DNA of 64,000 nucleotides from Anaerolinea thermolimosa (GTDB taxonomy: Bacteria > Chloroflexota > Anaerolineae > Anaerolineales > Anaerolineaceae): assembly GCF_001050195.2 (NCBI RefSeq), contig NZ_DF967965.1, forward strand, positions 1,567,150-1,631,149, written 5' to 3'. The position numbers and the translations under genes are program-made. Positions 7,929 to 45,889 of the stretch are shown here, one piece after another. Below the pieces are notes generated by a model. It saw only the letters and a list, made by a program, of their open reading frames with translations, was not told the origin of the DNA and ran no database searches. How positions within the stretch are numbered: the first letter of the stretch is position 1; each line of letters opens with the position of its first letter.

Positions 7929-9086
7929 CTACTCCAGATCGGGTAGGTCAGCCAGGTCAATTACCTCTCCGTTACAAAACAACATTGCTCGTTCAATAGA
8001 GTTACTTAATTCTCGGATATTTCCCGGCCAACGGTAAGACATTAATGCTTCCAGGGCACGAGAAGTTATATCCCGCACATTGAATCCCAGACGAGCATTA
8101 TTCAACCGAATAAAAAAGCCCACCAGTTCCGGAATATCCTCCCTGCGTTCACGAAGAGGTGGCAGGTGAAGATCCACTACTTTTAATCGATAATACAGGT
8201 CTTCACGAAAATGCCCATCCCGAATCATGGTTTTTAAATCTCTATTCGATGCCGCAATCAGTTGTACATCCACTTTGATAAGCGTTGTTCCCCCTACTCG
8301 CCGGAAAGCTCTTTCTTCCAGAGCGCGGAGTAATTTGGCCTGAATATCCATTGGCATAGAACTGATTTCATCGAGGAACAGAATTCCACCATCCGCCACT
8401 TCCATGAGGCCATGCTTTCGCCGATCTGCTCCGGTAAACGCACCTGCTTCAAAACCAAAAAGTTCTGCTTCCAGCATGGTGGGTTGAATCGCAGCGCAAT
8501 TAATCGCAATAAAGGGTTTGTTCGAACGCGGGCTGGATTGATGAATAAACTTTGCTAATACCTCTTTTCCCGTGCCAGTCTCACCGGTGATGAGAACAGA
8601 AACCGACGCCGTTGCCGCCTTTTGTGCCTGAGCGATCATCGTCTGCATCCTGGGGCTCTTCCCGATTACAAAATCGCATGTCTTTTGAATTTGACGCCAG
8701 TGTAACAATTCACGCCGCATGGTAACAATTTCACCGGCTCTTTCGATTGATTTCTCAAGCTGGCTGTATTGGATAGGTTTCGTTAAAAAATCATGCGCAC
8801 CATTTCGCATCGCATCTACAGCCATTTCTATATCACCATAGGCTGTAACCAGGATGATCGGTGGACGGTAAACCATTCCGGTCGTTTCATAAAGAAGATT
8901 TGGACCATATCCATCGGGCAATTGGACATCGAGAAGGATCAGATCAGCCTTTCCTTTTTGAAGGTGCTCCTTGGCTTCTGCCAGGGAACCCACCCCAATC
9001 ACTTCATATCCCTTTGAAGCCAGATAAGTTTCTGTATTCTTTCGAAAAGTCTCTTCATCATCCACAATTAATACCGTAAGGCTCAT
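7929..9086 (-). CDS. Sigma-54 activator: receiver plus AAA+ domain, no DNA-binding domain
   Basis: This 385-residue response regulator has a receiver domain (residues 3-120, phosphoacceptor Asp53 in [10 protein letters not shown], Lys103) and a sigma-54 AAA+ domain (about 140-375). The Walker A motif GETGTGKE (168-175), the sigma-54-contacting loop GAFTGA (215-220) and the Walker [10 protein letters not shown] are all intact, so it should open sigma-54 promoters when phosphorylated. NtrC-type proteins normally end in a Fis-type helix-turn-helix; here the chain stops at DLADLPDLE, right after the AAA+ domain, with only 45 bases to the next gene. It should therefore work without a specific enhancer site. 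It overlaps the kinase gene by 4 bases and is surely its partner. Confidence 0.93.
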
Positions 9087-11041
9087 GATTCCTCTCCATT
9101 GTAAGCAAGTAAGGTGACCTCAAACATTGTCCCGCCAGGGAAAGAACTCACTTGAATACTTCCATGGTGCGCCGTAATAATACGTTTTGTAATCGCCAAC
9201 CCCAGACCCGTTCCATTACTTTTTGTAGTCACAAAAGGCTCAAAGATCCGATCGCGGATTTCATCAGGAATACCCGGCCCGTCATCAGATACCGTAACAA
9301 CCACCTGAGGCCGGTTGGGAAGCACATTTTTAGGGCCGATCCTCACGGCAAGATTTCCACCATTTTTACTCATCGCATCGGTGGCATTACTGATTAAGTT
9401 TGTAAACACCTGTTCCATGGCACGAGGATCAGCATATACCAGAGGAGTGTTGTTTTCAACATGAAAGAAAGGATGAATATTGACCTTCGAAAATCTCGGA
9501 TGCCACCGTTCCAAAAGGCGCTTCAACAACAAAGCCAGATCGATCGCCTCGAATCTGTACTGGGTATTGCGCGAGAAATTTAAAACCGATTCCATCAAGT
9601 GGTTGAGACGGACACAATCATTCTGTAGACGGGTCAAGTGATCCTGATGTGGGTCATCTGCTGGAAGGGTCGCTGAGAGTAATTGCAACCCCGTATAAAT
9701 ATTATTGATTGGATTCCGTACTTCATGGGCGAAAACTGCAGTAACTTCTCCAAGAATTGCTCGCTGCTCCAATTGCTGACTGCGAATCCGAATTTCCTCA
9801 TTCTCTGAAATATCCGTCACTAACACCACCAGAGCCACAACCTGATCTCCGTCACTCACCGGAATCGTTTGAATATGCGCCGGAAACAACTGCCCATGTC
9901 TTCGATGAAGAGACACATTTCCGATGTTGTGGGTGGGTATTCCCCTTGCTGCGGCCTCCAGTGCCGGAATGAGGCTATCCGGGCCGATTAATACCGTATC
10001 AGCTTTCTGAGACTTAACTTCCCATTCCGCATATCCAAGCATCCACTCGGCGGCGGGGTTCATAGCCGTAATTTCCATGGCCGGATTAAGGATCAATATT
10101 CCTTCCTGGGCATTTTCGGTTATCACCCGGAAGGTCTCTAAGGATTGATTGAGAGCTAACAAATCACACCGCAGATTTTCAACCAGTACATGATGTTCAA
10201 TGAATCGGCTGATTTCTATCCCAAAAAGGTTCAAGGCGTCCATGATCCATGCCGCTGGTTTTTTACGATCAGCAACGACCAGTAAACCAAACAATTGTCC
10301 CGGTTGACCCAAAGGAGCAGTTCCTATGTATTGAAAGCCAAACTCATGACCGATTTGATGAAGATCCGAAATAAGTCTTTTTCCAGGTTGCCAGAGACCT
10401 ACCCGCGCCAGCCTAGCTAAGCTTACAGAGGAAATATGGTCTGGGAAAATTTCCCCTTCAGAAGAACACTCCATGAACTTGGTCAGTCTGGGTTTTTCTG
10501 GATCAGCCTGATATAAACATAAAAACGGTGCATCCAACACCTCTGCCATCTTGACGCCCACTTTATGCAGCACTTCAATAAAATTTCCCTCCATGGCCGC
10601 TTCATCAAGAAGATCGATTACCTGGGTTACCTTTTCCATAGGTAACTCAGGTTCCGAACTGTTGTTAGGGGGTGGCAGGGTAAGGATAAATAGATAAAAA
10701 CCGCTTCTTCCGTCCTTAATCTCTCTGGAAGTTAACTTTACTTTACATGCTTCTTGACCCTGTCTTAGCAGAATTACGTCCTTCTCGTTTGCCGCAGCGT
10801 AATCTTCATCAGAAATACCTGTAATGACCTTCGTTACTTTTTCTCTGGCAACTTCATTTGCCTCAAACTTCGAGAGTTTCAAAAAAGCCTGGTTGTATCT
10901 GTAAATAAGCCCATCTTTTTTACTCACCAGAAGTGCTGGCTTATCGATCAATTCCAGCACAGTATTAAACTCATTACCCCCCGGTAGATCATTCTGCCAG
11001 GGGATTCGAAACATTTTGTGAAACCAACCAAAATCAACCAT
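9083..11041 (-). CDS. Cytoplasmic PAS-GAF-PAS sensor histidine kinase
   Basis: This 652-residue kinase has an N-terminal PAS-like domain (about 25-120), a GAF-like domain (about 135-290), a second PAS (about 305-415), a HisKA domain with phosphoacceptor His439 in [14 protein letters not shown], and a HATPase domain with the N box [11 protein letters not shown]1 box DDGPGIP and G2 box GTGLGLAI. No membrane span or signal peptide is present, so it senses something inside the cell. It overlaps the sigma-54 activator gene by 4 bases and follows rpoN by 7 bases. The three form a complete signal-to-sigma-54 module. The signal is not readable from the sequence. Confidence 0.94.
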
Positions 11042-11048
11042 GGGCCAT

Positions 11049-12449
11049 TTAACCGGTCCTCCTTAAGTTAGCGGGCAGAATCCCCTCCATGGCTCGATAT
11101 TTTGCCACAGTTCTCCGGGCTACTTCATACCCTCTCTCTGCCAGAAGTTGAACCAGCTCTGAATCGCTGAGTGGGCGGGCTTCCTGATGGATGATTTCCT
11201 TCAAAACCATTCTCGCACTAAGACTGCGGTCAAAAAAATCCGCCAGTGGAATGATCTTGCGATTGGGTAATTGAACCGATTTATTAGCTACCGCACGTGA
11301 AATGGTCGATTCATGAACCCCCAACACTTTTGCCAGGTAGGCCCGGGTGATCGGCCTGAGATATTTCTCTCCATAGAGAATAAAATCACGTTGTAGGGTG
11401 GCAATTTGTGCCATTAATCGCTGCATGGTGTGGTTTCGCTGTTGAAGGCATTTGATAAAAAGGGATGCCCGCTCCAGGTCTTCTTTCATACTTTCCTTGT
11501 TTTCATCTTCTGCCTGGCGAATCGCTTGCTTAAAGAGAGGGTTTACCCGTAAAGTCCCCCAGAGTGGAAACAAAATTTCCACCACAAGTTGACTATCAGG
11601 CTCACCGGTTAACCGACTAATGATGATGTCAGGGCGATAAAATATTTGCGTCTGCGGTCCAGAAGGTTCTCGAATATCCCCCCAAGAGGACCTTCCCGGA
11701 AAGGGATTAAGGTTTTCCGCAATAAACCTTGCACACTCCCTCACGGCCTCGTCCGCCATACCCAGAGATTTAGCAAGCTCGTGATATTGTCTGCGGCTTA
11801 AATAATCCATCCCATCCCGAATGACCCGTTCTAGATTTTCGGGTACATGGCGGCTTTCACGCAACACATCAACCTGAACCAGCAACGCTTCCGTAGTACT
11901 GCAAGACCCCACACCCAGGGGGTCTGCTCGTTGAATAATTTTTTGTACCCCAAATACCCGTGTCAAAGGCACGTGCAAGTATGCCGCTACTTCTTCAAGT
12001 GAGACCGTGAGTAGACCATCTTCATCCAGATGTGTTAATAGAAACGCGGCAATCCCACGGTCTTCCACGGATACATCGGGAGCTACTTGCCGAAATACAT
12101 AGGTAGCCAGGTCTTCAGTGGATGCAGAACCTGTGTCCTCATAATCATCTTTTTCTTCCACATCCCCAAAGCCTGAGACAACATCTCGGGTAGAAACAAA
12201 GACGATGGGATCATCCTCACTTTTCAAAGAAGGCCGACTACAAACAGGACATACCCCCCCATTACGCAACAGACGGCGACAGGTTGGACAGCGAATTTCA
12301 TCCACCAATTCCAACGCCGGATTGGAGGCTAACTCGGCCTCAATCTGTTGTTGAAGCTCACCCGATGTAAGGCTCAATAATGTCATCGTCTGAGCCAGAT
12401 GTGCCGTGGTCAATGGGCGAATGGTGTGAACAGGTAGATGCTGGAACAT
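11049..12449 (-). CDS. rpoN: RNA polymerase sigma-54 factor (RpoN) with zinc-ribbon insertion
   Basis: This 466-residue protein is a full sigma-54. Region I lies at residues about 5-50 (leucine/glutamine rich), the core-binding domain in the middle, and the C-terminal RpoN box ARRTVAKYRA at 444-453, which contacts the -24 element. Between region I and the core-binding domain there is CPTC-x9-CPVC (Cys54, 57, 67, 70), a rubredoxin/zinc-ribbon-like knuckle not found in the enterobacterial protein. It is the first gene of the sigma-54/kinase/activator run and is itself preceded by a sequence that fits a sigma-54 promoter. Sigma-54 redirects polymerase to promoters that need an AAA+ activator. 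Confidence 0.95.
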   Translation of the reverse strand: MFQHLPVHTIRPLTTAHLAQTMTLLSLTSGELQQQIEAELASNPALELVDEIRCPTCRRLLRNGGVCPVCSRPSLKSEDDPIVFVSTRDVVSGFGDVEEKDDYEDTGSASTEDLATYVFRQVAPDVSVEDRGIAAFLLTHLDEDGLLTVSLEEVAAYLHVPLTRVFGVQKIIQRADPLGVGSCSTTEALLVQVDVLRESRHVPENLERVIRDGMDYLSRRQYHELAKSLGMADEAVRECARFIAENLNPFPGRSSWGDIREPSGPQTQIFYRPDIIISRLTGEPDSQLVVEILFPLWGTLRVNPLFKQAIRQAEDENKESMKEDLERASLFIKCLQQRNHTMQRLMAQIATLQRDFILYGEKYLRPITRAYLAKVLGVHESTISRAVANKSVQLPNRKIIPLADFFDRSLSARMVLKEIIHQEARPLSDSELVQLLAERGYEVARRTVAKYRAMEGILPANLRRTG

Positions 12450-12493: not shown

Positions 12494-12509
12494 TGCAAGT
12501 TCTGTGCCA
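12494..12509 (-). promoter_or_regulatory. Sigma-54 (-24/-12) promoter of rpoN
   Basis: On the minus strand the sequence reads TGGCACAGAACTTGCA. It has GG and GC exactly 10 bases apart and fits the consensus TGGCAYRN4TTGCW at every fixed position. Its predicted start is near 12483, 34 bases ahead of the rpoN start. It implies that sigma-54 activates its own gene and the kinase/activator genes behind it. Confidence 0.75.
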
Positions 12510-33476: not shown

Positions 33477-34772
33477 ATGAATAACCTGGACCTGTTGCAG
33501 AAGCTTGCTGTACTTTCCGTGGATGAAATCGAAAAGGCCCTGAATGAAGATTCGTCCAATCTACCTATACAAAATCTGATCGGTGAAGAAAAAGCAGAAC
33601 AACTCATTCAGACAGCCCGGGCACCAAAAGCCAGAGGTATCAAAGAACCCATCGCGGTCTTACCGGGTATCATGGGCTCATTGCTCTTCAGTATTCGAGG
33701 AGTCACGACCATGCTTTGGATTAATCCATTGCTTTTTATAAATGGGCAAGCGTCTTACCTGAGGATAGACGATGAAGAGAGAACCAGCCCGATGGTGGAA
33801 TGTGTCGCGTTCTCTCTGGAGAAATTAACCTACCTGAAGCTCGTACTTGAGTTACGCCGGGAATTCACGGTTTATGAATTTCCTTACGATTGGCGGTTAC
33901 CCATTGAAAACAACGCAGACATACTCCATTCCTCAATCGAACGATGGATTTCTGCACACCCCGGACAAAAAATCACTCTGGTAGCCCACAGTATGGGAGG
34001 GTTAGTATCAAGAAGTTACCTGGGAAGGCACCCGGAAACCGCCGAAAATCGCATCAGCCGCCTGATTACCCTTGGCACGCCACATCTTGGAGCCACCAGT
34101 GCTATCGATAATCTCTATCATGGGAATCAGATGATAGCTGTAGTCGATCGAATCAATCAACAAAACGAGATGAACCAGGTGGTGCTTTCAATGCCGAGCG
34201 TTTATCAGCTCTTGCCAGCTCCCCCCTCGCTTTTACCAGGTAATGTAGAACCAGCAAATTGGAACCTCTACGATGCAAGTACATGGGGAATAACGGGCAT
34301 CAAACAAAAATACCTGGATTTGGCCCGCAGTTTTCATGAGTCTCTTGCCGCTAGTGACCCACAGGTAGAGCTGGTTCAAATTGCCGGTTGCAATATCCAA
34401 ACCCTGACCCTGATAAAGAGAGAGAATGGTACTGGAACCATCCCTTATGAGATGATCGCTTTTGATGAAGGCAAGGACTCTGGAGATGGAACTGTGCCAG
34501 GATGGTCAGGTTTCTACCCAAAAGCGCGGGTTTATTATATTCAGGAAGTCCATCGAAATTTACCGGGTAATTCAGACGTGATTCAAGCCGTAAAAGCCAT
34601 TACCCGGGAAGGCAAATGCAATCTCAGCCAGCAAGTCCCGAAGAAAAAAAGTGGGTTAATTGCCCGTGATAGTCCATTGCCTGTGAACACCCGTGCTGCC
34701 ATCATAGAGGAGAAAATCCACTCCGGAACTGTGACCGAAGCAGATTTGGAGAATCTTTATTTTGCTTTGTAG
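33477..34772 (+). CDS. Cytoplasmic LCAT-type lipase/acyltransferase
   Basis: This 431-residue alpha/beta hydrolase has a complete triad: Ser172 in VAHSMGGLV, Asp337 in DSGDGTVPG and His359 in QEVHRNLPG. The IAVLPGIMGSLLF oxyanion segment and EFPYDWRLP are typical of the lecithin:cholesterol acyltransferase family, which acts on phospholipids. Residues 1-55 form a helical extension (LLQKLAVLSVDEIEKALN), and residues about 390-431 form a charged C-terminal tail (IIEEKIHSGTVTEADLENLYF). There is no signal peptide, so it must reach the membrane from inside or stay inactive. It lies 9 bases before the metacaspase-like gene. AGGAG stands 4 bases ahead of the ATG. I infer a membrane-damaging effector or remodeller. 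Confidence 0.85.
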   Translation: MNNLDLLQKLAVLSVDEIEKALNEDSSNLPIQNLIGEEKAEQLIQTARAPKARGIKEPIAVLPGIMGSLLFSIRGVTTMLWINPLLFINGQASYLRIDDEERTSPMVECVAFSLEKLTYLKLVLELRREFTVYEFPYDWRLPIENNADILHSSIERWISAHPGQKITLVAHSMGGLVSRSYLGRHPETAENRISRLITLGTPHLGATSAIDNLYHGNQMIAVVDRINQQNEMNQVVLSMPSVYQLLPAPPSLLPGNVEPANWNLYDASTWGITGIKQKYLDLARSFHESLAASDPQVELVQIAGCNIQTLTLIKRENGTGTIPYEMIAFDEGKDSGDGTVPGWSGFYPKARVYYIQEVHRNLPGNSDVIQAVKAITREGKCNLSQQVPKKKSGLIARDSPLPVNTRAAIIEEKIHSGTVTEADLENLYFAL

Positions 34773-34781
34773 GGAGAAAAA

Positions 34782-35561
34782 ATGACCAAAAAAGCGTTGT
34801 GCGTAGGAATCAATGACTACCCTTACTTGGGAAACGATCTTCGAGGATGTGTTAATGATGCCAGGGGATGGGCTCACCTTTTGATCGACCACTACGATTT
34901 TCCTGCCCCAAACGTGCAGGTTATCCTGGACTCTCAAGCTACCAAAGTCAACATAATCTCAGCCTTAAAGAATCTCCTTGCTGGTGCTACCCCGGGGGAT
35001 GTTTTGGTTTTTACCAATTCTTCTCATGGATCTTATGAGGTTTCAACGGATAATGATGAGAAATACGATGAGTTGATCTGCCCATATGATATTGATTCCA
35101 ACCAGATCGTAGACGACGAACTTCGCGAATTATTTTCTGGTATTCCCCGGGGAGTTCGCATGACTGTAATCCTGGATAACTGTTTCTCTGGCACCGGTAC
35201 CAAACTCCCAATCCTTGACCTCAGACCCCGCTTTTTACCCCCGTCAGTCCGCGGTAAACCCGAGTTGCTCAATCCCTTTCTGGCCAGGCCAGCTAATTCG
35301 GGCCTCAGTGAAGAGGATATGAATGAAATTTTGTTGAGCGGTTGTAAGGACATCGAGTTTTCATACGATGGTAATTTTGGCGGGACATTTCATGGCGCGA
35401 TGACCTACCATGCCCTGGAAGTAATCCGTCAGGCAAAGTACAAGCTCACCTATGAACAGCTTCATCGCAGGGTGAATCTACGTTTAAGAAAAGCCAATAT
35501 CAACCAGCACCCTCAGCTCGAAGGGAAACTTGCCTTTAAAAAAGCTCAGATCTTCAACTAG
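34782..35561 (+). CDS. Metacaspase-like cysteine peptidase (C14 fold)
   Basis: This 259-residue protein is a bare caspase-fold peptidase. ALCVGINDYPYLGNDLRGCVNDA opens the p20-like core, the catalytic His82 is in FTNSSHGS and Cys134 in VILDNCFSGTG. The acidic residues of the metacaspase S1 pocket are plausible in DEKYDELICPYD, so cleavage after arginine or lysine is likely from family knowledge. There is no regulatory domain, signal peptide or membrane span. It follows the lipase by 9 bases and the lipase tail is a possible substrate. The 3' end of the gene overlaps a terminator that serves the opposite strand. Confidence 0.9.
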   Translation: MTKKALCVGINDYPYLGNDLRGCVNDARGWAHLLIDHYDFPAPNVQVILDSQATKVNIISALKNLLAGATPGDVLVFTNSSHGSYEVSTDNDEKYDELICPYDIDSNQIVDDELRELFSGIPRGVRMTVILDNCFSGTGTKLPILDLRPRFLPPSVRGKPELLNPFLARPANSGLSEEDMNEILLSGCKDIEFSYDGNFGGTFHGAMTYHALEVIRQAKYKLTYEQLHRRVNLRLRKANINQHPQLEGKLAFKKAQIFN

Positions 35562-35601: not shown

Positions 35602-38253
35602 TTATCGTGACACTGCCAGTTTTATTACCTTTCCATCTGCCGCCACGGTAGCCCTGGCATAATGCCGATGTACTGTTTTTGCCCAGGGGACTTGCTTACT
35701 TACCGTGACCACATAACACTTACCGTGCGGTATCCCTTTGGATCCCTTTGAAAGTGCAGGGGCATCCGATCCACTCTGAGCGGCAATATGAATTTCGGCT
35801 GTATCGATACCCGGTAAGTAGCCTGCCAATTTTTGTTTTACATCTTCCAGAACTTTGAAGGAAAGGGGGCCGGGTTCTCCACTTTCAACCGGTTTTTCGT
35901 TTACCACCGTAATTTTTGGATGTTTCTTCAAACGCAACGTCGTTTTTGCCTGTTTTTGTCGGTTCTCCAGGCGTACAAGAGGGTCTCCATACAACACGAA
36001 AGAGAGAAGCGTTTTCTGGTCTTCGGCATCCAGATAACCCTGGCGTCTTACCATTTCACGGGACATTTCAATCTTTGCGATCATTAACGCTTCTCCCGCC
36101 GTCCTGCCTGCTTTCATCTGCTGCCAGAAGTAATTCCCAAGCAAATCCGCTGACACCAGTGGAGGGGTAATTGCGCCATAAGCGATACAGGTCGATCCAA
36201 TCATTGCCAGCGTACCAAGGGACAGGAACTTTAATGCAAGAGCAGTATCTTCTGTTTTATTTACAATATGCCCCCCATAACAGGCCTCACTGAAAACCAC
36301 CTTTGGGGCGTGTCCATTGCGCTTAAGCTGAGATGGCATCAAAGCTACCGGATAATCCGGTCCACGTATCGGATCAAAAGGATCTCTTTGCCCATACCAT
36401 TCAGGAGTATCTTCCATGCCGTGCAGGTTGTAATAGGCCACTTCAGTCTGAAGCAATTTTTCAACCGGTAGGTTTTGAGTATCCTGAGGGGGTGAGACCA
36501 ATAACTTCGCCGGGTTTCCTACTGGACGGAATACCGCCGTCGAAGAACGACGCCAGACTGCTGCCGTATATCCTGTATTCTCTGCTCCATTGTTCCTATC
36601 CTGAAATACCCGAAAAAATGCCTCGAACATCCACAGGAAAGGCCAGAGAACACTACTTTCTCCCATCGATTTTTTCTGTTTTGCACCGTTATGGTATCCA
36701 ACCTGCCGCCTCAATTGATCTAAGAGCAGGCCGGCGTCTGGACCGGTAGCCCCAGGCAGCCTTCCTACCGGCCATTCGGGCACAAAATAGTTGGATCCGA
36801 GGGTTGCGTAAGGGTTGTCTGAGAATATCTTTTCGTCGAAATCATCTGCAGGGTTCGGAAGCTCATGAAATGGAATTACCTGAGGCCCTCCCACGATTAA
36901 CAACATTCCGATCATTTTCCCTTTTTTAGAAAGAGCTTTATCAAGATCTGAAAGAGAAAGCTTAAGCTTCCATGGGTCACGTTCTGTAAGGGGTTGAAAA
37001 CCGTATGTTGCCACCACGTCGGGGTCATCCGGGTAAAATACCAATGAATCCCAGCCTGTATGCTTCTTTATGGCCTCACCAAGACGCCTCATTTCAAGGT
37101 CAATCACCTGAGCCGTCTGTTCTCCATATTGTTCGATCAATCCCTGTTTCGAAGAAAAAATCACATAAACAGGGAATCGACCATCCGATTTACCAATCAC
37201 CGGTTGCTTGATCCGGATAGCAACTTTTCGCAACTCACCTTCAATCGATTTTAACTCTTCGGAACTTAATGGAGAAACCCTGGTAGGAGTGTCCATTCCA
37301 TGTCCATCAGACTGGATAGGAATTTCTGAATGGCTGGGATGTGCCTCAAAGTTAGGATCAGCGATCGGGGAGATAGATTCCTGGACTCTCTCATTGACAT
37401 CTCCCCGGTCATAGTGCTCAGGGGCCGGTTCGACAATCCCCTCTCCAGGTGGTAACCAGGCACCCGTTAATCGGGTAGCTACTGCAACAGGTAGAGGAAG
37501 ATCAAAATAACATTCCATTTTCGCTGGCCAGAGCGATCGATAGGGATGATGATCTCCCCAGATTCGACGCGCTACCTGTCCGGTAGAATCCAGTGTAACG
37601 CACTGGTGAAGCAGTTTCACCGCTTCTGTTTCCCGCCCAATTGTTATCAACGCGGCTGATTTTCGTAAAAGAAGCTCTACGCACTGACACCCTGATTGTA
37701 AATATTTCTCAGCAATTTCCACCACCCGCCCAGCTTCACCTGATTTCTCCACCAATCTTAAGTGAAGAATAATTCCCAGTAGTGGAATGGTTTCGCCCAT
37801 CATTACCGGCTCCAGTAGTGCTTCGGCTTCGGAAAAATGACCGGAATGATATGCCTGTCTTGCCAAAAAAAGCGTTTCCGCCCAGGGATACGTTGCTGCG
37901 TCAGGTGGAAGAATCTCTCCAAGAGCCTTCAATGACGACATTGATTCAACAAAGTGCTCTGAGGACTGAGAGCGGGCAATTCTGGCTCTGACCTGATGGG
38001 CATCCTGGAATTCAGGATCAAGGACAATGATTCGGTCCAAAATTTCCAGAGCCTGGGTTTCCCGGTGATCACCTGCCAGCATCTCTGCCAGGAACAGCAT
38101 AACTTCAAGGTCACCTGGATACACTGCCAGCCAGGCCAAAGCAGCCTGCCTGCCAAAGGAGTAAGACTGGCACCCCAATGCAATCTCCAACATTTGAAGC
38201 AAATGCTTTCGACTTAGCATCTGCGTCTCTGGTTTCCTCTCTTCGTTGCTCAT
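35602..38253 (-). CDS. TPR protein with gingipain-like (C25/caspase-fold) peptidase domain
   Basis: This 883-residue protein has N-terminal TPR-like repeats (residues about 15-225), a linker, then a C25/CHAT-type caspase-fold domain at about 360-765. The domain shows FPVYVIFSS, LLIVGGPQVIPFHELP, and NYFVPEWPVGRLPG as in gingipains. Catalytic His611 lies in YYNLHGMED and Cys658 in VFSEACYGGH. Residues 780-883 form an alpha/beta tail of unknown role. Gingipains are secreted, but no signal peptide exists here, so this peptidase works in the cytoplasm. It overlaps the giant TPR gene by 4 bases. TPR plus caspase fold recalls TPR-CHAT proteases of prokaryotic defence, but the domain here is of C25 type. 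Confidence 0.85.
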   Translation of the reverse strand: MSNEERKPETQMLSRKHLLQMLEIALGCQSYSFGRQAALAWLAVYPGDLEVMLFLAEMLAGDHRETQALEILDRIIVLDPEFQDAHQVRARIARSQSSEHFVESMSSLKALGEILPPDAATYPWAETLFLARQAYHSGHFSEAEALLEPVMMGETIPLLGIILHLRLVEKSGEAGRVVEIAEKYLQSGCQCVELLLRKSAALITIGRETEAVKLLHQCVTLDSTGQVARRIWGDHHPYRSLWPAKMECYFDLPLPVAVATRLTGAWLPPGEGIVEPAPEHYDRGDVNERVQESISPIADPNFEAHPSHSEIPIQSDGHGMDTPTRVSPLSSEELKSIEGELRKVAIRIKQPVIGKSDGRFPVYVIFSSKQGLIEQYGEQTAQVIDLEMRRLGEAIKKHTGWDSLVFYPDDPDVVATYGFQPLTERDPWKLKLSLSDLDKALSKKGKMIGMLLIVGGPQVIPFHELPNPADDFDEKIFSDNPYATLGSNYFVPEWPVGRLPGATGPDAGLLLDQLRRQVGYHNGAKQKKSMGESSVLWPFLWMFEAFFRVFQDRNNGAENTGYTAAVWRRSSTAVFRPVGNPAKLLVSPPQDTQNLPVEKLLQTEVAYYNLHGMEDTPEWYGQRDPFDPIRGPDYPVALMPSQLKRNGHAPKVVFSEACYGGHIVNKTEDTALALKFLSLGTLAMIGSTCIAYGAITPPLVSADLLGNYFWQQMKAGRTAGEALMIAKIEMSREMVRRQGYLDAEDQKTLLSFVLYGDPLVRLENRQKQAKTTLRLKKHPKITVVNEKPVESGEPGPLSFKVLEDVKQKLAGYLPGIDTAEIHIAAQSGSDAPALSKGSKGIPHGKCYVVTVSKQVPWAKTVHRHYARATVAADGKVIKLAVSR

Positions 38254-41200
38254 AAGGCTGTTTTCGCCTCCTGGGTTTTATGAATCAGGTTCAGTGCCAT
38301 CACGCTGACCAGTTGCCGGTGAATTTGTAAATCATCCGGTGCAATTTTTGCCGCCTGCTGTAACATTTTCTCAGCCCCTTGATAATCCTTGGCTTCTTTA
38401 AGGATCAGACCCGCCTCAAAATATCCACGAGCATCTCGAGGAGCAATCCGGATTACCTCCTGAAAAGTTTCTAGGGCCTTCTGAAATTCTCTCCGATCCA
38501 GATATACCTGTCCAAGTTCAAGATAAGCATCTACATTGGCAGGGTCCATGAGAACAGCCTGACTCAGATGATGGACTGCCTGATCTAATTGCCCGGTACG
38601 CCGATTCAAAACACCGAGTTTCATTGCCAGTCTGGGTTGATGGGGGTTAATCCTTAATGAGCGGAGCGCTGATTGCTGGGCTAATTGAACATTACCCAAT
38701 TCCGCCTGCACCATTGCATGAAGAGCCAGCACCTCTGCATCCTCAGGATAAGCCTGCACCAGACGTTGAGCCATTTCGGAAACCGAGGCAGGCCCATCAA
38801 TCTGATAAATCAACTGGGCTTTTTCCAGGAGCAATTCCCGGCACGCTGGCTGACTCTCGAGTGCACTTTCAATCACAGCCAGGCTGGCATGGAGTTCCTG
38901 CTGAAGCCCCAGCATCCGGCTGAAATTAATGATTGCCTCGAGGGTGTGTGGTGAACATTCATAAGCGATTCTCGCCAATCGGAGCGCCTCGGAGGAATTG
39001 CCAAGTTTGAAAGAAGCTCTGGATGCCAGAACAAGAGCAAGAGAATCACCACCCGCCATTTCGCTGGCTTTGAGAGCATTCTTAAGAGAGCCCTCCCAGT
39101 GGCCCTGTTCAAATTGGGCCTGAGCCAGCAACAACCAGGCTTCTGGAGAATCGGGGCACAACCGGGTAGCCTGTACCAGTATTTCTTCTGCTTTCTCTTG
39201 ATCACCATTGAATAAGTGGTTACGCCCAAGTCCCAGGGCATATTTTCCTTCTGCAGGATTCAAAGCAAAAGCTTTCTCCAGGTGAACAAGTGCATTTGAA
39301 TAATCTCCCATGGATTCAGCCAACCACCCAACCTGGGCCTGCCAGCCCTCCTCATCCGGCCAAATAGATAACGCCTCTTCTAGGGATTCAATCGCTGTAC
39401 CAACTTCACCAAACCGTTCTTGAAGAGTTGCCACCAGAACCAAAACCAATGGATGCCCAATATTTTGTGCAAGTATATCCTTTGCCAATAAAAGAGCACC
39501 GGGATCGTTCTTCTCCGCAAGCACAAGTGCTTTCTGGAACAATACCACACTGTGATTCGAGAGATTGGCAGCTTGCAATGCTTCATCAAGACAGTTCAAT
39601 TTTCTGAAACACAAAATTACGGCCGCCAGTTCACCCGCAGAACGGGGCATGATCATCGCTTGCTTTGCAACCTCTTTGGCGGGTTGTAAAGCCATGGAAA
39701 TTCTCCATTTCAGCTGCTGGAACCTTCCGGCATCGAGGAACAAACGCAGGCTTTCCAGGCTGTTTTCAAGTGTTTCTCTAAAGGCAAGGTCCTTTTCATC
39801 CACAAACGGAGTGTGCGCTTTGATTCGGAGTTCCTTTTCCATGGACTTGAACTCCACCGCCTCCACAGATATACGCACTTTTTCATAAATTCCACGCACT
39901 TCACCCGGAAAGAGTGTTAAATATTGACTTATCAATTTAAAACTGCTGTCCCATAAATACGCTTCAGCTGCAGTCTTTGCAACCGCCAGTAAAAGATTCC
40001 CATCAGGGCGAGCGTTCACGATAAGATGCTGGACCAGGTTTTCAATGATTTCGGTTGCCTGGCGGAACTTTCCCTGGCGGATGAGCAATCTGGCTTCTAC
40101 ACTTTGCACCCACAAAGATTCATTTCCAGCAGGTCGGCAAAGCTGGTGCCATCGTGTTGCCCCTTCAAGGTCTTCATGTTCGATAGCCAGATGGCAGCCA
40201 AGACCAACCAGTGAAGCGGCCTCAGCCTCAAGGAGGCTGTCATCATCCGGGGTCAGCGAAAAAGCCAACTCCAGGGCTTTCTCATCCTGAAGGGTGGCAT
40301 AAGCCAGTTCAGTTAACAGCCAGCGGTTTCGGAGCGATTTAGGAGAGTAGACCCATGCCTTTTCAGCCTGTTCAAAGGCGCTCGCCAGGTTACCCAATCG
40401 GCGTTGCCAGACCGCCAGACGATAATATAAATCCGTCAGCATGGCTTCCTCATTCTCATTCTCCGGATTTATCGCTCCGATGGCCTTTTCTACTGCTTCG
40501 ATCGCCCCATTGAATCGATTCTGGCGGGCCAGCAAATCGGCGTAATAGACCAGTAGACGGGGATCAGAAATACCCTGATTGCCCTTCTCCAAGGTTTGAG
40601 TTGCCAGATCAATTTGACCGGTTTTTTCATACACCTGCGCCAGCTCATACACCAGCTCTGGAGATGCAGGGCTGCTTAATGATATTGCCTTTTCGAAATA
40701 CTCAATCGCCGCGGGAAAATCCTGTAACCGTAAAGACAGGTATGCCGCCTGGCGTAGTAGTTCAACATCATCGCTCGATTGCTCTTCTTTGATTGCCTGC
40801 AGGGCATCCCGGGCGCTTTCCAGATCACCGCTTTCCAGAGCCAGCCGGGCATATCGAATTCGGAGATCGACCCTGCCTGGTATTAACATAATCGCCTGTT
40901 TTAGCGCGTCTAACGCCCTGGAAGCTCTATCGAGGCGAACCATCATTCTGGCAAACCAGTCCAGGTTTTCTGGATCATTGGGGGCCAGACTAAGAGCTCG
41001 TTCTGCAGCTTCTTCTGCGTCCTTCTTCAGGTTTGCCTCAAGGCAGGCTTCCGCCAGATCATGGGTCAAGGTGAGGTTAGAAGGCTGGGATTGGGAAGCT
41101 TCTCGCAACAAAGCCACCCCGGCTTCCATATTCCCAACCGCCATCATAGTCATGCCTAACCCGTGTTGAACGTTCCCCAGGAGCCCACTGCGGAGAACAT

Positions 41201-43580
41201 CTTCAGCGTCAATCAGTTCTCGATATAGCTGTTGGGCATCTTCAAGTCTCCCCTGTTTTCGGATCGATTCAGCAATGGCCAGCTTAATGACCAAATTATC
41301 CGGGGCCAGTATCTCGGCCTTTTCTAATAATTCCTCAGCTCGTTGATACCGGAGGTTCTTTTCATGGTTTCCCAGAGCTAGATGATCATCCAGGAGTACC
41401 CGGGCATACTTCAAATACCAATCTGCTTTTGCACGAGGAGAGCGGGTGGCTATCTCAAATGCTGGGACAGCCGCTCTTGCATCTCCAAGGTCCATCGCGA
41501 TACATCCATACTCATATGCCACTCCCGGATCTACCTCCCACATATTTTTCAAGGGTTCGATCACCTCTCTGGCTTCCTGTAAGTAACCAAGAGCGTGAAG
41601 AGCCTTGCTGAATAGAAACTGCACTTCAGGAGATTGACGATTCAGGTTGGAAGCTTGCCTGAGATAAGGCAATGCTTCGGTTGGCTGTTCTTTTTCGAGA
41701 AGCTTCTTTCCCAGAGCAAAGTTTAATTCTGGCGAACTTGACGCTGCCAGCAGTCCTGCTTTCAGAGTATCAATCTCTGCAATTTCCTCGCCCTTCTGCT
41801 CGTACAGACCAGCGAGAGCTAACCACCATTCAGGCGCTTCGGGAGAAACCAGGGTTGCCCGGCTCAAATGCATTTCGGCTTCATCCAAACGGCCCTGAAC
41901 AATCCGAATTTTGCCCAGGATCCCATGAATTTCGCCAATATCTGGATAGGAGGAGAGTAACTCCTCACAAAGATTTGAAGCCTCATCGTATTGACCCACT
42001 TCTACTGCATCACGGGTGTATAAAATTTTATCTTCCAAAGTGGGCTCTTTGGCTCTGGTAAGAACACCCTTCCGTCTGAGATAAGCATTGGCCCAATCCC
42101 CCAGGTGCTCGTACAAAGCCGCAGACTCACGAATAAGATCGATTCGGTCAGGGGCAAGGCAAAGAGCAATCTCTATCAGGCGCAGTGCCTGCTCTAATAA
42201 ACCAGAATCTCTGTATATCTTCTCGAGGAAAAGGATAAGTTCAAAATCCGCCGGTCTTTTCTGGAGGAGAAGATCTCCAAGTTCCATGGCCTCCTGGAGT
42301 AATCCCATTTCAATAAGTTTTGAAAGAATGGTACCAGGCCGCCATGTTAAAATAAACCCGGCCTCTTGAGTTTCTTCCTCTCTCAATGAGCGAATTAATT
42401 TCTGAACCGAGGGTTTGGCCACCTCACACCCCAGTGCCTTCTCTCCCTGTTGGTAAAGAGTCCAACCATATTGGACCGAAATGCAAGGATCATGATAGGC
42501 CGCCAACTTTTCACCGATATCCTGAAGATCATCAGGGTTGCGATATGACAATAACCATCCAAACTGTTCTTGAACAGCAGGATTAGCCACAGTAATCGGA
42601 TCAATGGCGGTCATTTGTTCTGCAAGACCACTCTTCAAATTTTGAGACTCATCGAGAAAAGCTCTCTGCAGCCTGATTCCCCATTGGAAGACTTCCAGAG
42701 CATCAGTGGCTTTTTTAAGCATCATTTTGGCCTGAACCGGGTTCCCTGCCAGAGAATGGAGTGTGGCCGTTCTCTGGGCTTCCAGGAGGATTTTTCCAAG
42801 CGCTTCCGGGGTGAAGTGGAAATTCTCTTGCTCGCCGGGTTCAACGGCAGAAAGCGGGACATTTTCCAGCAGTTCTCCCGCAAGAACGCGGCTTTCTTCT
42901 TCCAGACCACGCTGAACTAAAAGGCGTAAAAATTCAATTTGTTGTGCCCCTGTAATGCCCCGCAACCATTTTTTCACCGATTCTGCCACCGGTGATCGGT
43001 CGGCAGGTTGTGTCTCGTAAATGTGCAGCATCCATCGTAAACCTGCAGTTTCGTTTTTCGGAGCCCACAATCCCAGAATCAGGTCGTACGCATCTCCAAC
43101 CATTCCTGCCAGGCAGGCCAGCGGTGTTAACCAGATCTCTGGATTTAGGGAACGGACCCCGGTAGGTGCTGTAATTAATTCATCCGCAAGACCATTCCAA
43201 TTCCCGGTAAGCCTGCGTCTTTCCCGAAGGGCTAAAGCCGCCAAAACTGCCATCTTCAGGTCCGAGGGTTTCTCGCCTCTCCGTCTGATATCTTCATACG
43301 CGCGCACTGCCCTGACCCGCAGACCGCTTTCCAATCCATTCATTGGTTCTTTTAGGAGTTGATCTCGGAGTCCCGGTTCTCCAATGGCCATTAATCCCAG
43401 GGTGGCTGGAGTCCAATCATGAAGATCTCGGCCCCAGTCTTCTGATAGGTTCTTAAAAAAAGACTCTTCCTGGACGTACTCCCAGATTAGAGAATCCCGC
43501 CTCAAAATCTGGCTCAAACGGACTGCCCATTGGGGTTCGAAGGTCGTATGAAGAAAATCAAAAAAGCGCTGGGCTGTCAT
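38250..43580 (-). CDS. Giant TPR-repeat protein (1776 residues)
   Basis: Residues 1-230 are a helical non-repeat domain I cannot assign (MTAQRFFDFLHTTFEPQWAVRL). From about 290 to the end there are many tetratricopeptide repeats, clearest in the middle and at the C-terminus (LGQVYLDRREFQKALETFQEVI). TPR arrays are protein-binding scaffolds. There is no signal peptide, membrane span or enzymatic motif. It starts 7 bases after the two-TM gene and overlaps the TPR/gingipain gene by 4 bases, so all three are made from one mRNA. A scaffold or sensor that holds the peptidase is the natural reading, as inference. Confidence 0.85.
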   Translation of the reverse strand: MTAQRFFDFLHTTFEPQWAVRLSQILRRDSLIWEYVQEESFFKNLSEDWGRDLHDWTPATLGLMAIGEPGLRDQLLKEPMNGLESGLRVRAVRAYEDIRRRGEKPSDLKMAVLAALALRERRRLTGNWNGLADELITAPTGVRSLNPEIWLTPLACLAGMVGDAYDLILGLWAPKNETAGLRWMLHIYETQPADRSPVAESVKKWLRGITGAQQIEFLRLLVQRGLEEESRVLAGELLENVPLSAVEPGEQENFHFTPEALGKILLEAQRTATLHSLAGNPVQAKMMLKKATDALEVFQWGIRLQRAFLDESQNLKSGLAEQMTAIDPITVANPAVQEQFGWLLSYRNPDDLQDIGEKLAAYHDPCISVQYGWTLYQQGEKALGCEVAKPSVQKLIRSLREEETQEAGFILTWRPGTILSKLIEMGLLQEAMELGDLLLQKRPADFELILFLEKIYRDSGLLEQALRLIEIALCLAPDRIDLIRESAALYEHLGDWANAYLRRKGVLTRAKEPTLEDKILYTRDAVEVGQYDEASNLCEELLSSYPDIGEIHGILGKIRIVQGRLDEAEMHLSRATLVSPEAPEWWLALAGLYEQKGEEIAEIDTLKAGLLAASSSPELNFALGKKLLEKEQPTEALPYLRQASNLNRQSPEVQFLFSKALHALGYLQEAREVIEPLKNMWEVDPGVAYEYGCIAMDLGDARAAVPAFEIATRSPRAKADWYLKYARVLLDDHLALGNHEKNLRYQRAEELLEKAEILAPDNLVIKLAIAESIRKQGRLEDAQQLYRELIDAEDVLRSGLLGNVQHGLGMTMMAVGNMEAGVALLREASQSQPSNLTLTHDLAEACLEANLKKDAEEAAERALSLAPNDPENLDWFARMMVRLDRASRALDALKQAIMLIPGRVDLRIRYARLALESGDLESARDALQAIKEEQSSDDVELLRQAAYLSLRLQDFPAAIEYFEKAISLSSPASPELVYELAQVYEKTGQIDLATQTLEKGNQGISDPRLLVYYADLLARQNRFNGAIEAVEKAIGAINPENENEEAMLTDLYYRLAVWQRRLGNLASAFEQAEKAWVYSPKSLRNRWLLTELAYATLQDEKALELAFSLTPDDDSLLEAEAASLVGLGCHLAIEHEDLEGATRWHQLCRPAGNESLWVQSVEARLLIRQGKFRQATEIIENLVQHLIVNARPDGNLLLAVAKTAAEAYLWDSSFKLISQYLTLFPGEVRGIYEKVRISVEAVEFKSMEKELRIKAHTPFVDEKDLAFRETLENSLESLRLFLDAGRFQQLKWRISMALQPAKEVAKQAMIMPRSAGELAAVILCFRKLNCLDEALQAANLSNHSVVLFQKALVLAEKNDPGALLLAKDILAQNIGHPLVLVLVATLQERFGEVGTAIESLEEALSIWPDEEGWQAQVGWLAESMGDYSNALVHLEKAFALNPAEGKYALGLGRNHLFNGDQEKAEEILVQATRLCPDSPEAWLLLAQAQFEQGHWEGSLKNALKASEMAGGDSLALVLASRASFKLGNSSEALRLARIAYECSPHTLEAIINFSRMLGLQQELHASLAVIESALESQPACRELLLEKAQLIYQIDGPASVSEMAQRLVQAYPEDAEVLALHAMVQAELGNVQLAQQSALRSLRINPHQPRLAMKLGVLNRRTGQLDQAVHHLSQAVLMDPANVDAYLELGQVYLDRREFQKALETFQEVIRIAPRDARGYFEAGLILKEAKDYQGAEKMLQQAAKIAPDDLQIHRQLVSVMALNLIHKTQEAKTAL

Positions 43581-43587
43581 AAGGCCT

Positions 43588-43917
43588 CTAGAATGAATTA
43601 ACTCGAGTGATTAAAAAATAAGCCCCTGCAAAGAGGATAAATCCCACGATGATCAAAAACACTCCAACCCCTGTGGTAGTTTTTACCAGTTGGTTCAACG
43701 CATCCAGAAGAGCAGATGCATTCCCGACAAGCCCCGATACTTCTTCAGCCAACCCCTTTTGGGCCAGCCGAACAGTCTGATCAGCCAGGGTCCGAACATC
43801 CTTCCCTGAAGCGCGGTATACGAGCACCACAATGCCAGCAATGAGAGAAATTGCCCCCAGTACCATCATGCTGACGGCCATAATGATCATTAATTCGTCG
43901 ACACCCAGAGAAATCAT
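43588..43917 (-). CDS. Small two-TM membrane protein
   Basis: This 109-residue protein has two membrane helices (residues about 9-34, LMIIMAVSMMVLGAISLIAG onward, and about 83-105, GVFLIIVGFILFAGAYFLI). Between them lies an amphipathic loop of about 45 residues (DVRTLADQTVRLAQKGLAEE). I chose the ATG at 43917 because GGGAGG stands 5 bases ahead; an upstream in-frame start at 43953 would fall at the predicted transcript start and is unlikely. It is the first gene of the sigma-54-driven operon and could anchor the TPR/peptidase proteins to the membrane. It does not resemble a gasdermin. Confidence 0.75.
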   Translation of the reverse strand: MISLGVDELMIIMAVSMMVLGAISLIAGIVVLVYRASGKDVRTLADQTVRLAQKGLAEEVSGLVGNASALLDALNQLVKTTTGVGVFLIIVGFILFAGAYFLITRVNSF

Positions 43918-43956
43918 ATTGCCTCCCGATTGGTGTGAACACTCGAGAGGCAAGGA

Positions 43957-43972
43957 TGCAATTTCTATGCCA
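43957..43972 (-). promoter_or_regulatory. Sigma-54 (-24/-12) promoter of the two-TM/TPR/gingipain operon
   Basis: On the minus strand the sequence reads TGGCATAGAAATTGCA, with GG and GC exactly 10 bases apart. It matches the consensus TGGCAYRN4TTGCW at every fixed position and agrees at 14 of 16 bases with the rpoN site at 12494-12509. The predicted start near 43946 gives a 29-base leader to the ATG at 43917. Confidence 0.78.
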
Positions 43973-44068
43973 GGAAGGGAATATCAAGGACAGAAGAAAG
44001 TTATACCCCCAACTCTGAAAAACTCAAGGCAGGATTGATCTCGAACATGAATTTCTCCCACCGAGCTC

Positions 44069-45889
44069 CTAATCGGGATTTTCAATCAGAGATTTAATTT
44101 GTTCGACATAGGAGAGGCTTTGATGCCTGAAATAGGTATTATATAAATCGGCGTAATACCCTCCCTTCCTAAGCAATCCCTCATGATTGCCTTCCTCGAG
44201 AATTTTCCCATGCTCCAGCACAATTATCCTGTCAGCTGACCGGACGGTCGACAGGCGGTGAGCAATGAGAATACTGGTAGCATTCTTCAAAATCATATTG
44301 AGTGCCTGTTGGATTTGCCACTCTGTAAAGGGGTCAATGCTGGCTGTTGCCTCGTCCAGGATAAAAATAGCTGGCTTTTGCACCAACACCCGTAACAGGG
44401 AGACCAGTTGCCTTTGCCCCATGGATAACCTGCTCCCCCGTTCTCCTACCTGAGTGTCGAGCCCATCTGGAAGAGTGTCTAACCATTCTCCATCTCCAAT
44501 CCGCCGGGCTATAGCCTCCACATCACTTCGAGTAATTTCAGGCCTGGCGTATGAGACATTCTCAAAAATGGTGCCTGCAAAAAGAAATGGAGATTGAGAT
44601 ACAATGCCAAGTTGTTTTCGATATTGCTGCAGATCGAATGAACGGATATCCATTTGATCAACCAGGATCCTTCCACCCTGGAATTCATAAAACCGGGCAA
44701 TCAACCGCGCCAGGGATGATTTTCCGGCACCAGTATGGCCAACAATTGCCAGTGTTTCGCCGGGATCAATATGAAGTGTGAAATCATCCAGAACGCGTTC
44801 TCCCTCTCGATAATGGAAAGTCACTCGGATAAAATCAATCTCTCCCTTTAAAGGCGGAACCGGTAGATTTGACGATTGGACAACAGCTGGTTCTGCATCA
44901 ATCAGGGCAAACACTCTTTCCGCGGCTGACAGACCAGATTGTATCTGTGTCCAAAAGGAAGCCAGACTCATCACCGGGAATAAAAAACGATCGAGACTCA
45001 GGATAAACAGGTACCATGCTCCTGCAGTCACCAGTCCCTGAGTCACACTCAACCCGCCAAAATATACCAGTATTGCCGAAGTCACTCCGCCGATCATATT
45101 AAGAGTTGGAAAGACGACCGAGAGCACAAGCCCCCGTTGTACATTGACCCGATAAGAGAGGACATTTGCGTTGGAAAAGATCTGATAAATACTCTGTTCT
45201 TGCCGATAATTTTTAGCTACAGCGATACCACTCACGGTCTCCTTGATGGTCGAATTGACCTCGGCCATGGCCTGCATTCCGCGCTTCGTTACCTTTCGGG
45301 CAAGTGATCGATAGCCCAGAGTCATAGCAAAAACCAGAGGCACCAGGGTAAATACAAACAGCGAAAGCCGCCATTCAATCCGCACCAGAACAACTCCCAG
45401 GATCAACGCTTCAGCCACCTGCGAAACCAGGTCAGTAATCATGGTGACCAGGTTTCCAAATTCACGGGTGTCGTTGGTGATTCTGGAAAGCACCTTCCCA
45501 GAGGGATATTGATCATAAAATGACAAATCATGCCCTGCTGCAGATCGAAATGCCTCTGTGCTAAGTACGACCAGGGTATCTGCAATCGTCCGCACGGTCA
45601 GCTTTCGCCGCACGTAATTCGCCAGCCAGTTTAAAACTCCAACCAGTAACACGGCGCCACAGATCAGGTAGATCCCACTTTCCACCCGTTGATTCTTGAT
45701 CCAGTCTACACCCCTCGAAACCAGAACCGGATTAAGCGCTCCCAGTCCGGACATTAAAAGGACAAAGCATGCAATCGCAACCAATCGCCAGCGCTGGGGA
45801 TAAAAATAATAAGCAATCCTTCGAACCAGTTCCCGGTCGGAATATTGTCTGTCGTATTTTTCCGCAGTTAGACTTCCAAAAAAGCCCAT
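44069..45889 (-). CDS. Heterodimeric ABC exporter, half with consensus Walker B and altered signature
   Basis: This 606-residue half-transporter has six membrane helices (residues about 25-320) and a nucleotide-binding domain with Walker A GHTGAGKSS, Walker B IFILDEATASID with the catalytic glutamate, and H-loop IAHRLST. The signature is LSMGQ rather than LSGGQ. It lies 3 bases behind the partner gene, whose Walker B lacks the glutamate. The pair therefore has one working and one degenerate ATP site, as in BmrCD- and TM287/288-type exporters. The cargo is likely a lipid, drug or peptide and cannot be read from the sequence. Confidence 0.93.
   Translation of the reverse strand: MGFFGSLTAEKYDRQYSDRELVRRIAYYFYPQRWRLVAIACFVLLMSGLGALNPVLVSRGVDWIKNQRVESGIYLICGAVLLVGVLNWLANYVRRKLTVRTIADTLVVLSTEAFRSAAGHDLSFYDQYPSGKVLSRITNDTREFGNLVTMITDLVSQVAEALILGVVLVRIEWRLSLFVFTLVPLVFAMTLGYRSLARKVTKRGMQAMAEVNSTIKETVSGIAVAKNYRQEQSIYQIFSNANVLSYRVNVQRGLVLSVVFPTLNMIGGVTSAILVYFGGLSVTQGLVTAGAWYLFILSLDRFLFPVMSLASFWTQIQSGLSAAERVFALIDAEPAVVQSSNLPVPPLKGEIDFIRVTFHYREGERVLDDFTLHIDPGETLAIVGHTGAGKSSLARLIARFYEFQGGRILVDQMDIRSFDLQQYRKQLGIVSQSPFLFAGTIFENVSYARPEITRSDVEAIARRIGDGEWLDTLPDGLDTQVGERGSRLSMGQRQLVSLLRVLVQKPAIFILDEATASIDPFTEWQIQQALNMILKNATSILIAHRLSTVRSADRIIVLEHGKILEEGNHEGLLRKGGYYADLYNTYFRHQSLSYVEQIKSLIENPD

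Follow-up and report, generated by a model that had tools for sequence, protein, structure and literature searches.

A site of the -24/-12 type in Anaerolinea thermolimosa almost certainly drives, as a sigma-54 promoter, the operon TM2-TPR-C25, whose last gene encodes a caspase-fold protein; this prediction rests on sequence comparison with relatives across the order. The promoter is well supported, and transcription itself is inferred in the absence of transcript, RNA or biochemical data. We further think, with somewhat better than even confidence, that the site belongs to a sigma-54 regulon, governed by a single activator, that serves cell division or envelope remodelling; the division role is inferred from linkage and shared sites only. 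Core division genes are not, to our knowledge, usual targets of sigma-54. We found no description of this circuit in the open literature, most subscription papers being outside our coverage. The coordinates of its parts are collected in Table 1.

Table 1. Features of the predicted sigma-54 promoter, its operon and the regulator genes
Feature	Position	Strand	Remarks
-24/-12 sigma-54 promoter TGGCATAGAAATTGCA of the TM2-TPR-C25 operon (predicted)	43957..43972	-	Pattern match, orthologous sites in relatives, spacer test
Predicted transcription start of TM2	43945..43946	-	Inferred, counted 12-13 bases past the GC; unmapped
Ribosome binding site GGGAGG	43922..43927	-	4 bases ahead of the TM2 ATG; read from sequence
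TM2, 109-aa protein with two membrane helices	43588..43917	-	Kept in relatives
TPR, 1776-aa tetratricopeptide repeat protein	38250..43580	-	No membrane segment found
C25, TPR domain and gingipain-type (peptidase C25) caspase-fold domain	35602..38253	-	
C25 His611	36421-36423	-	Invariant in 50 orthologs
C25 Cys658	36280-36282	-	Invariant in 50 orthologs
-24/-12 site TGGCACAGAACTTGCA of the rpoN-HK-EBP operon	12494..12509	-	Likely autoregulation
rpoN, sigma-54 with AID, core-binding and DNA-binding domains	11049..12449	-	RpoN box ARRTVAKYR
HK, histidine kinase with PAS, HisKA and HATPase domains	9083..11041	-	No membrane segment found
EBP, receiver and AAA+ activator with GAFTGA loop	7929..9086	-	No C-terminal DNA-binding domain

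A conserved -24/-12 site ahead of the TM2-TPR-C25 operon

Read on the minus strand from 43972 to 43957, TGGCATAGAAATTGCA has the GG-N10-GC core and fits TGGCAYR-N4-TTGCW, with 39 bases between its end and the TM2 ATG at 43917. An earlier note on this DNA had placed a sigma-54 promoter here, ahead of the first start codon and with a full match to the motif, had counted 14 of 16 bases identical to the site at rpoN (TGGCACAGAACTTGCA), and had seen no third full match. Sequence comparison and a pattern search bear out each of these points: the only two zero-mismatch matches in the whole window (the entire 64,000-nucleotide stretch of DNA analysed) are these sites. No sigma-70-like promoter was found in 43500-44200. 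The genes that follow are tightly spaced, with a gap of 7 bases between TM2 and TPR and an overlap of 4 bases between TPR and C25. A weak terminator-like hairpin lies at 43623-43636 (minus strand) in the 3' end of TM2, ahead of TPR; shuffled sequences yield equally many.

The frequency of such sites was judged by pattern counts with reversed-pattern and spacer controls. The organism's own genome (4.17 Mb) contains 11 strict matches to the pattern but only 1 to its reversed form; with one mismatch allowed the counts were 177 against 59, so weak matches are largely noise, strict matches are mostly signal, and information comes only from sites that are nearly perfect. Of the 11 strict sites, seven stand at gene starts, namely those of X418, ftsZ2, rpoN, TM2, ftsL-ftsI, a GGDEF-EAL gene and a gene for a 254-aa membrane protein; two of the seven overlap the gene before them at its 3' end. 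The remaining four, inside or antisense to genes, are probably chance matches, or else uncertain. Because the reversed pattern is a weak control for composition, we added a spacer control on loci fetched by protein.

To read the operon in relatives, 61 genomes were searched, residues 1-599 of TPR serving as query, and the upstream DNA was examined; the site recurred at approximately equal distance in nearly all loci that reached the operon start. An independent set of named genomes (Anaerolinea, Bellilinea, Longilinea, Levilinea, Leptolinea, Ornatilinea and Thermanaerothrix, together with many MAGs) gave a strict site ahead of TM2 in 46 of 61 loci and a near match (score at least 14) in 8 more. 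Seven loci had no site at TM2 (L147, L151, L159, L180, L183, L187 and L194). In all of these except L194, X418 and/or ftsZ2 lies ahead of TM2, and this stretch carries strict sites of its own in every case but L180, where there is none; X418-ftsZ2 with its sites thus accounts for five of the seven. L194 has only ftsZ2, at a contig end, with no site.

The spacer test, in which sites were counted for spacer lengths of 0 to 11 only in loci fetched by protein, returned a single peak at a spacer of 4 with every query: 19 against at most 2 for any other length in TPR loci, 17 against 0 in FtsI loci, 46 against at most 1 in FtsZ2 loci, and 54 against at most 6 in C25 loci. The protein orthologs had meanwhile diverged to about 25-40% identity while the position of the site and its 4-base spacer were kept. 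The fixed position, the sole enrichment of the 4-base spacer and the usual rpoN-kinase-activator neighbourhood (see below) strongly support a sigma-54 promoter, and the claim in the earlier note that such a promoter serves this operon therefore stands on comparison across the order, with no mapped start. The note had also named many equal-scoring sites inside coding regions as a result that would refute it, and this test was mostly negative. The four or so of 11 strict genome sites inside genes do leave room for a chance match, or for a sequence kept for some other reason in an operon that sigma-54 does not control; however, that dozens of genera keep both its position and its exact spacer makes either of these extremely improbable.

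The linked sigma-54 regulator

Genes for rpoN, a soluble PAS-type HK and an NtrC-like EBP form one operon (7929-12449), and a strict site stands ahead of rpoN in 7 of the 9 relatives in which that stretch was covered. The genome thus encodes both RpoN and a GAFTGA-bearing activator. EBP stops directly after the AAA+ lid, the NtrC model being covered only to position 378 of 463, and lacks the C-terminal helix-turn-helix, as do activators of the CtcC/FlgR type. It is the only clear sigma-54 activator in its own genome; most relatives have one or two. Having no DNA-binding domain and no clear counterpart in the genome, EBP probably works from solution at all strong -24/-12 sites, which would then themselves define the regulon. 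This is an inference in which we have reasonably good confidence, made by analogy with Chlamydia CtcC, an activator that likewise has no DNA-binding domain (PMC7482065; also PMC3162934).

The chlamydial CtcB-CtcC-RpoN circuit (PMC7482065) resembles that of A. thermolimosa in joining a sensor kinase to such an activator, with one activator per genome (PMC3162934). It differs in that rpoN, kinase and activator form a single operon in A. thermolimosa, and in its targets: the chlamydial regulon comprises envelope and type III secretion genes, whereas that predicted for A. thermolimosa comprises the TM2-TPR-C25 genes, ftsZ2 and the division cluster. PrsK-PrsR-PrsT of the XrtA/PEP-CTERM system also unites a TPR protein with a kinase and activator for sigma-54. 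The A. thermolimosa set was rejected as a member of that system, with scores well below the equivalog cut-offs for TPR (243.8 against 312.2), EBP (346.9 against 502.6) and HK (80.8 against 300).

In most relatives TM2-TPR-C25 is immediately preceded by rpoN-HK-EBP, and each half usually has a -24/-12 site ahead of it. The two halves are about 23 kb apart in the window; the block thus seems to have been split here, a state inferred from its rarity to be derived. Elsewhere in the order, other families have a block that runs on into X418 and ftsZ2; one locus (L265) carries rpoN-HK-EBP-TM2-TPR-C25-X418-ftsZ2 in a single run, with sites ahead of rpoN, TM2, C25 and X418, and parts of this gene order recur in L267, L269, L271, L272 and others. 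Some families (L265 to L269) have an extra -24/-12 site just ahead of C25, and internal sigma-54 promoters are thus possible in the operon.

Regulator and protease also tend to occur together: rpoN and C25 are jointly present or jointly absent in 57 of 61 genomes (50/2/2/7, p = 3e-6). This statistic is inflated by relatedness and by contigs missing from draft genomes; among genomes at least 94% complete the table is 34/1/1/3 (p = 0.0017). Four genomes from two families (G041, G047, G054 and G060) have neither rpoN nor C25, and show only one FtsZ. Sampling of 301 genomes across the phylum turned up relatives of C25 in 23, with the close ones belonging to this order.

Division genes that share the site

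Sites of the same kind stand ahead of ftsZ2 in 28 of 30 relatives; for ftsL-ftsI the count is 22 of 30, with 8 loci lacking one. The control rate for an equal score was 2 in about 290,000 positions. The product of ftsZ2 is a second FtsZ that shares about 48% identity with the FtsZ of the division cluster; in FtsZ2 the GTP-binding motif is kept and the C-terminal tail mostly so. Every FtsZ2 sequence in which the T7-loop motif was read has NxDF(A/S)H or NxDFAN, as against NLDFAD in the same organism's division FtsZ, so the catalytic Asp is replaced by His or Asn throughout these orthologs. GTP hydrolysis depends on this Asp (D212 in E. coli), and from its replacement, read in the sequence alone, we infer that the filaments of FtsZ2 may be slow or regulatory.

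Overlap of the ftsZ2 site with the 3' end of X418 is frequent, and part of the site's conservation could be due to X418 coding; that the third positions (GGC, GCA) are fixed and only one spacer occurs speaks against this. X418 (L068:5439-6695) encodes a 418-aa protein, adjoins ftsZ2 in the loci read, and has its own -24/-12 site in the A. thermolimosa genome. The protein had no Pfam or NCBIfam match, and its predicted model, of alternating helices and strands, is of low confidence (pLDDT 54).

Sigma-54 has been linked in general to genes for the cell exterior and for peptidoglycan (Francke et al. 2011, PMC3162934), and TM2-TPR-C25 might accordingly act in the assembly of surface polysaccharide or wall, not in division as such. 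The ftsL-ftsI site precedes further wall genes of that cluster, and the GGDEF-EAL target suggests surface control, both of which would suit such an exterior role. However, apart from the operon itself, the target conserved most regularly is the second FtsZ and not a wall enzyme, and we consider a purely exterior role quite unlikely.

A caspase-fold protein with a TPR domain

C25 fulfils what is expected of a Peptidase C25 member, namely profile match, fold and His/Cys pair, with catalysis inferred. The caspase-fold product proposed in the earlier note is supported both by Pfam and by the predicted structure (pLDDT 84), and H611, G612, E656 and C658 are invariant across 50 orthologs. A structural search matched the model to gingipain RgpB (Z 31.8, rmsd 2.7 over 306 residues), to separase at Z of about 16, and likewise to TPR-CHAT at a Z below that for gingipain; a PDB sequence search with C25 gave TPR matches only, the gingipains having come from the structural search. 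A hydropathy scan, the only method applied, found no export signal in TPR or C25 and no N-terminal hydrophobic segment in C25, from which the protease is probably cytoplasmic; protease activity is itself an inference.

C25 shares with gingipains the fold of the catalytic domain (Z of about 30) and the His/Cys pair. Unlike them it shows no export signal by hydropathy, carries a TPR domain in front, and shares an operon with giant TPR and TM proteins. With separase and TPR-CHAT (Craspase, Csx29) it has in common a TPR-like superhelix joined to a caspase-fold protease, but Pfam gives C25 only and neither the separase nor the CHAT family; membership in separase (C50) or CHAT was ruled out on this ground, and the likeness is structural alone. 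Separase acts in cell division.

The same features might be read as parts of a programme for stress, starvation or development, where the promoter would be real, C25 would be a protease of regulated proteolysis or cell death, and the sites at ftsZ2 and the division genes would serve to slow or arrest division. The resemblance of C25, with its caspase fold and TPR, to TPR-CHAT and separase would fit such a programme, as would the altered GTPase suggested by the T7-loop replacement in FtsZ2 and the internal signal suggested by a soluble PAS kinase. Against this, neither TM2 nor C25 matched the defence library, and the module is found almost throughout the family, which is not true of most defence or death systems, so we judge a stress or death programme unlikely while granting it some weight. 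Known anti-phage defence was rejected separately, there being no defence-model match for TM2 or C25 and only weak repeat matches for TPR.

A proposed regulon for septation or cell separation

The role that we favour is septation or cell separation, aided by the protease and carried out jointly with FtsZ2. As we envisage it, RpoN-bound RNA polymerase would sit waiting on the -24/-12 site until the soluble HK phosphorylates its partner EBP, whose AAA+ ring would then remodel the closed complex. EBP would act in this way from solution on all strong -24/-12 sites, the site alone setting a regulon conserved in Anaerolineales and made up of rpoN-HK-EBP, TM2-TPR-C25, X418-ftsZ2 and the ftsL-ftsI cluster. 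C25, probably partnered by the giant TPR protein and TM2, would work with FtsZ2 in septation, cell separation or envelope remodelling.

In its most specific form, which we put forward only tentatively and at somewhat less than even confidence, the proposal is of a dedicated Anaerolineales sigma-54 division system (rpoN-HK-EBP-TM2-TPR-C25-X418-ftsZ2), in which a separase-like protease and an FtsZ2 with an altered GTPase loop control septation or separation. A single activator, requiring no binding site, would turn on this system and the main division cluster jointly. A one-activator circuit placed ahead of a protease operon, ftsZ2 and the main division cluster points to an undescribed control of division or septation in filament-forming bacteria of the Anaerolinea type. 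With a single activator and a regulon that could be read from the promoter alone, the function of a bacterial caspase-fold protease becomes easily testable, and the circuit offers a route to the purpose of the second FtsZ in this large environmental lineage.

Other sites and neighbouring genes

Two further strict sites of the A. thermolimosa genome lie in loci outside the division genes. One (L070:4897-4912) is about 60 bases ahead of the GGDEF-EAL gene, which also encodes a GAF domain. The other (L069:7266-7281, minus strand) is in the gap ahead of the gene for the 254-aa membrane-like protein, for which there was no Pfam match. Within the window, a lipase-like gene (LCAT/PGAP1 matches) and a separate caspase (Peptidase_C14) gene occupy 33477-35561, convergent to C25; the C14 protein matches a PADLOC caspase model at 1.9e-14.
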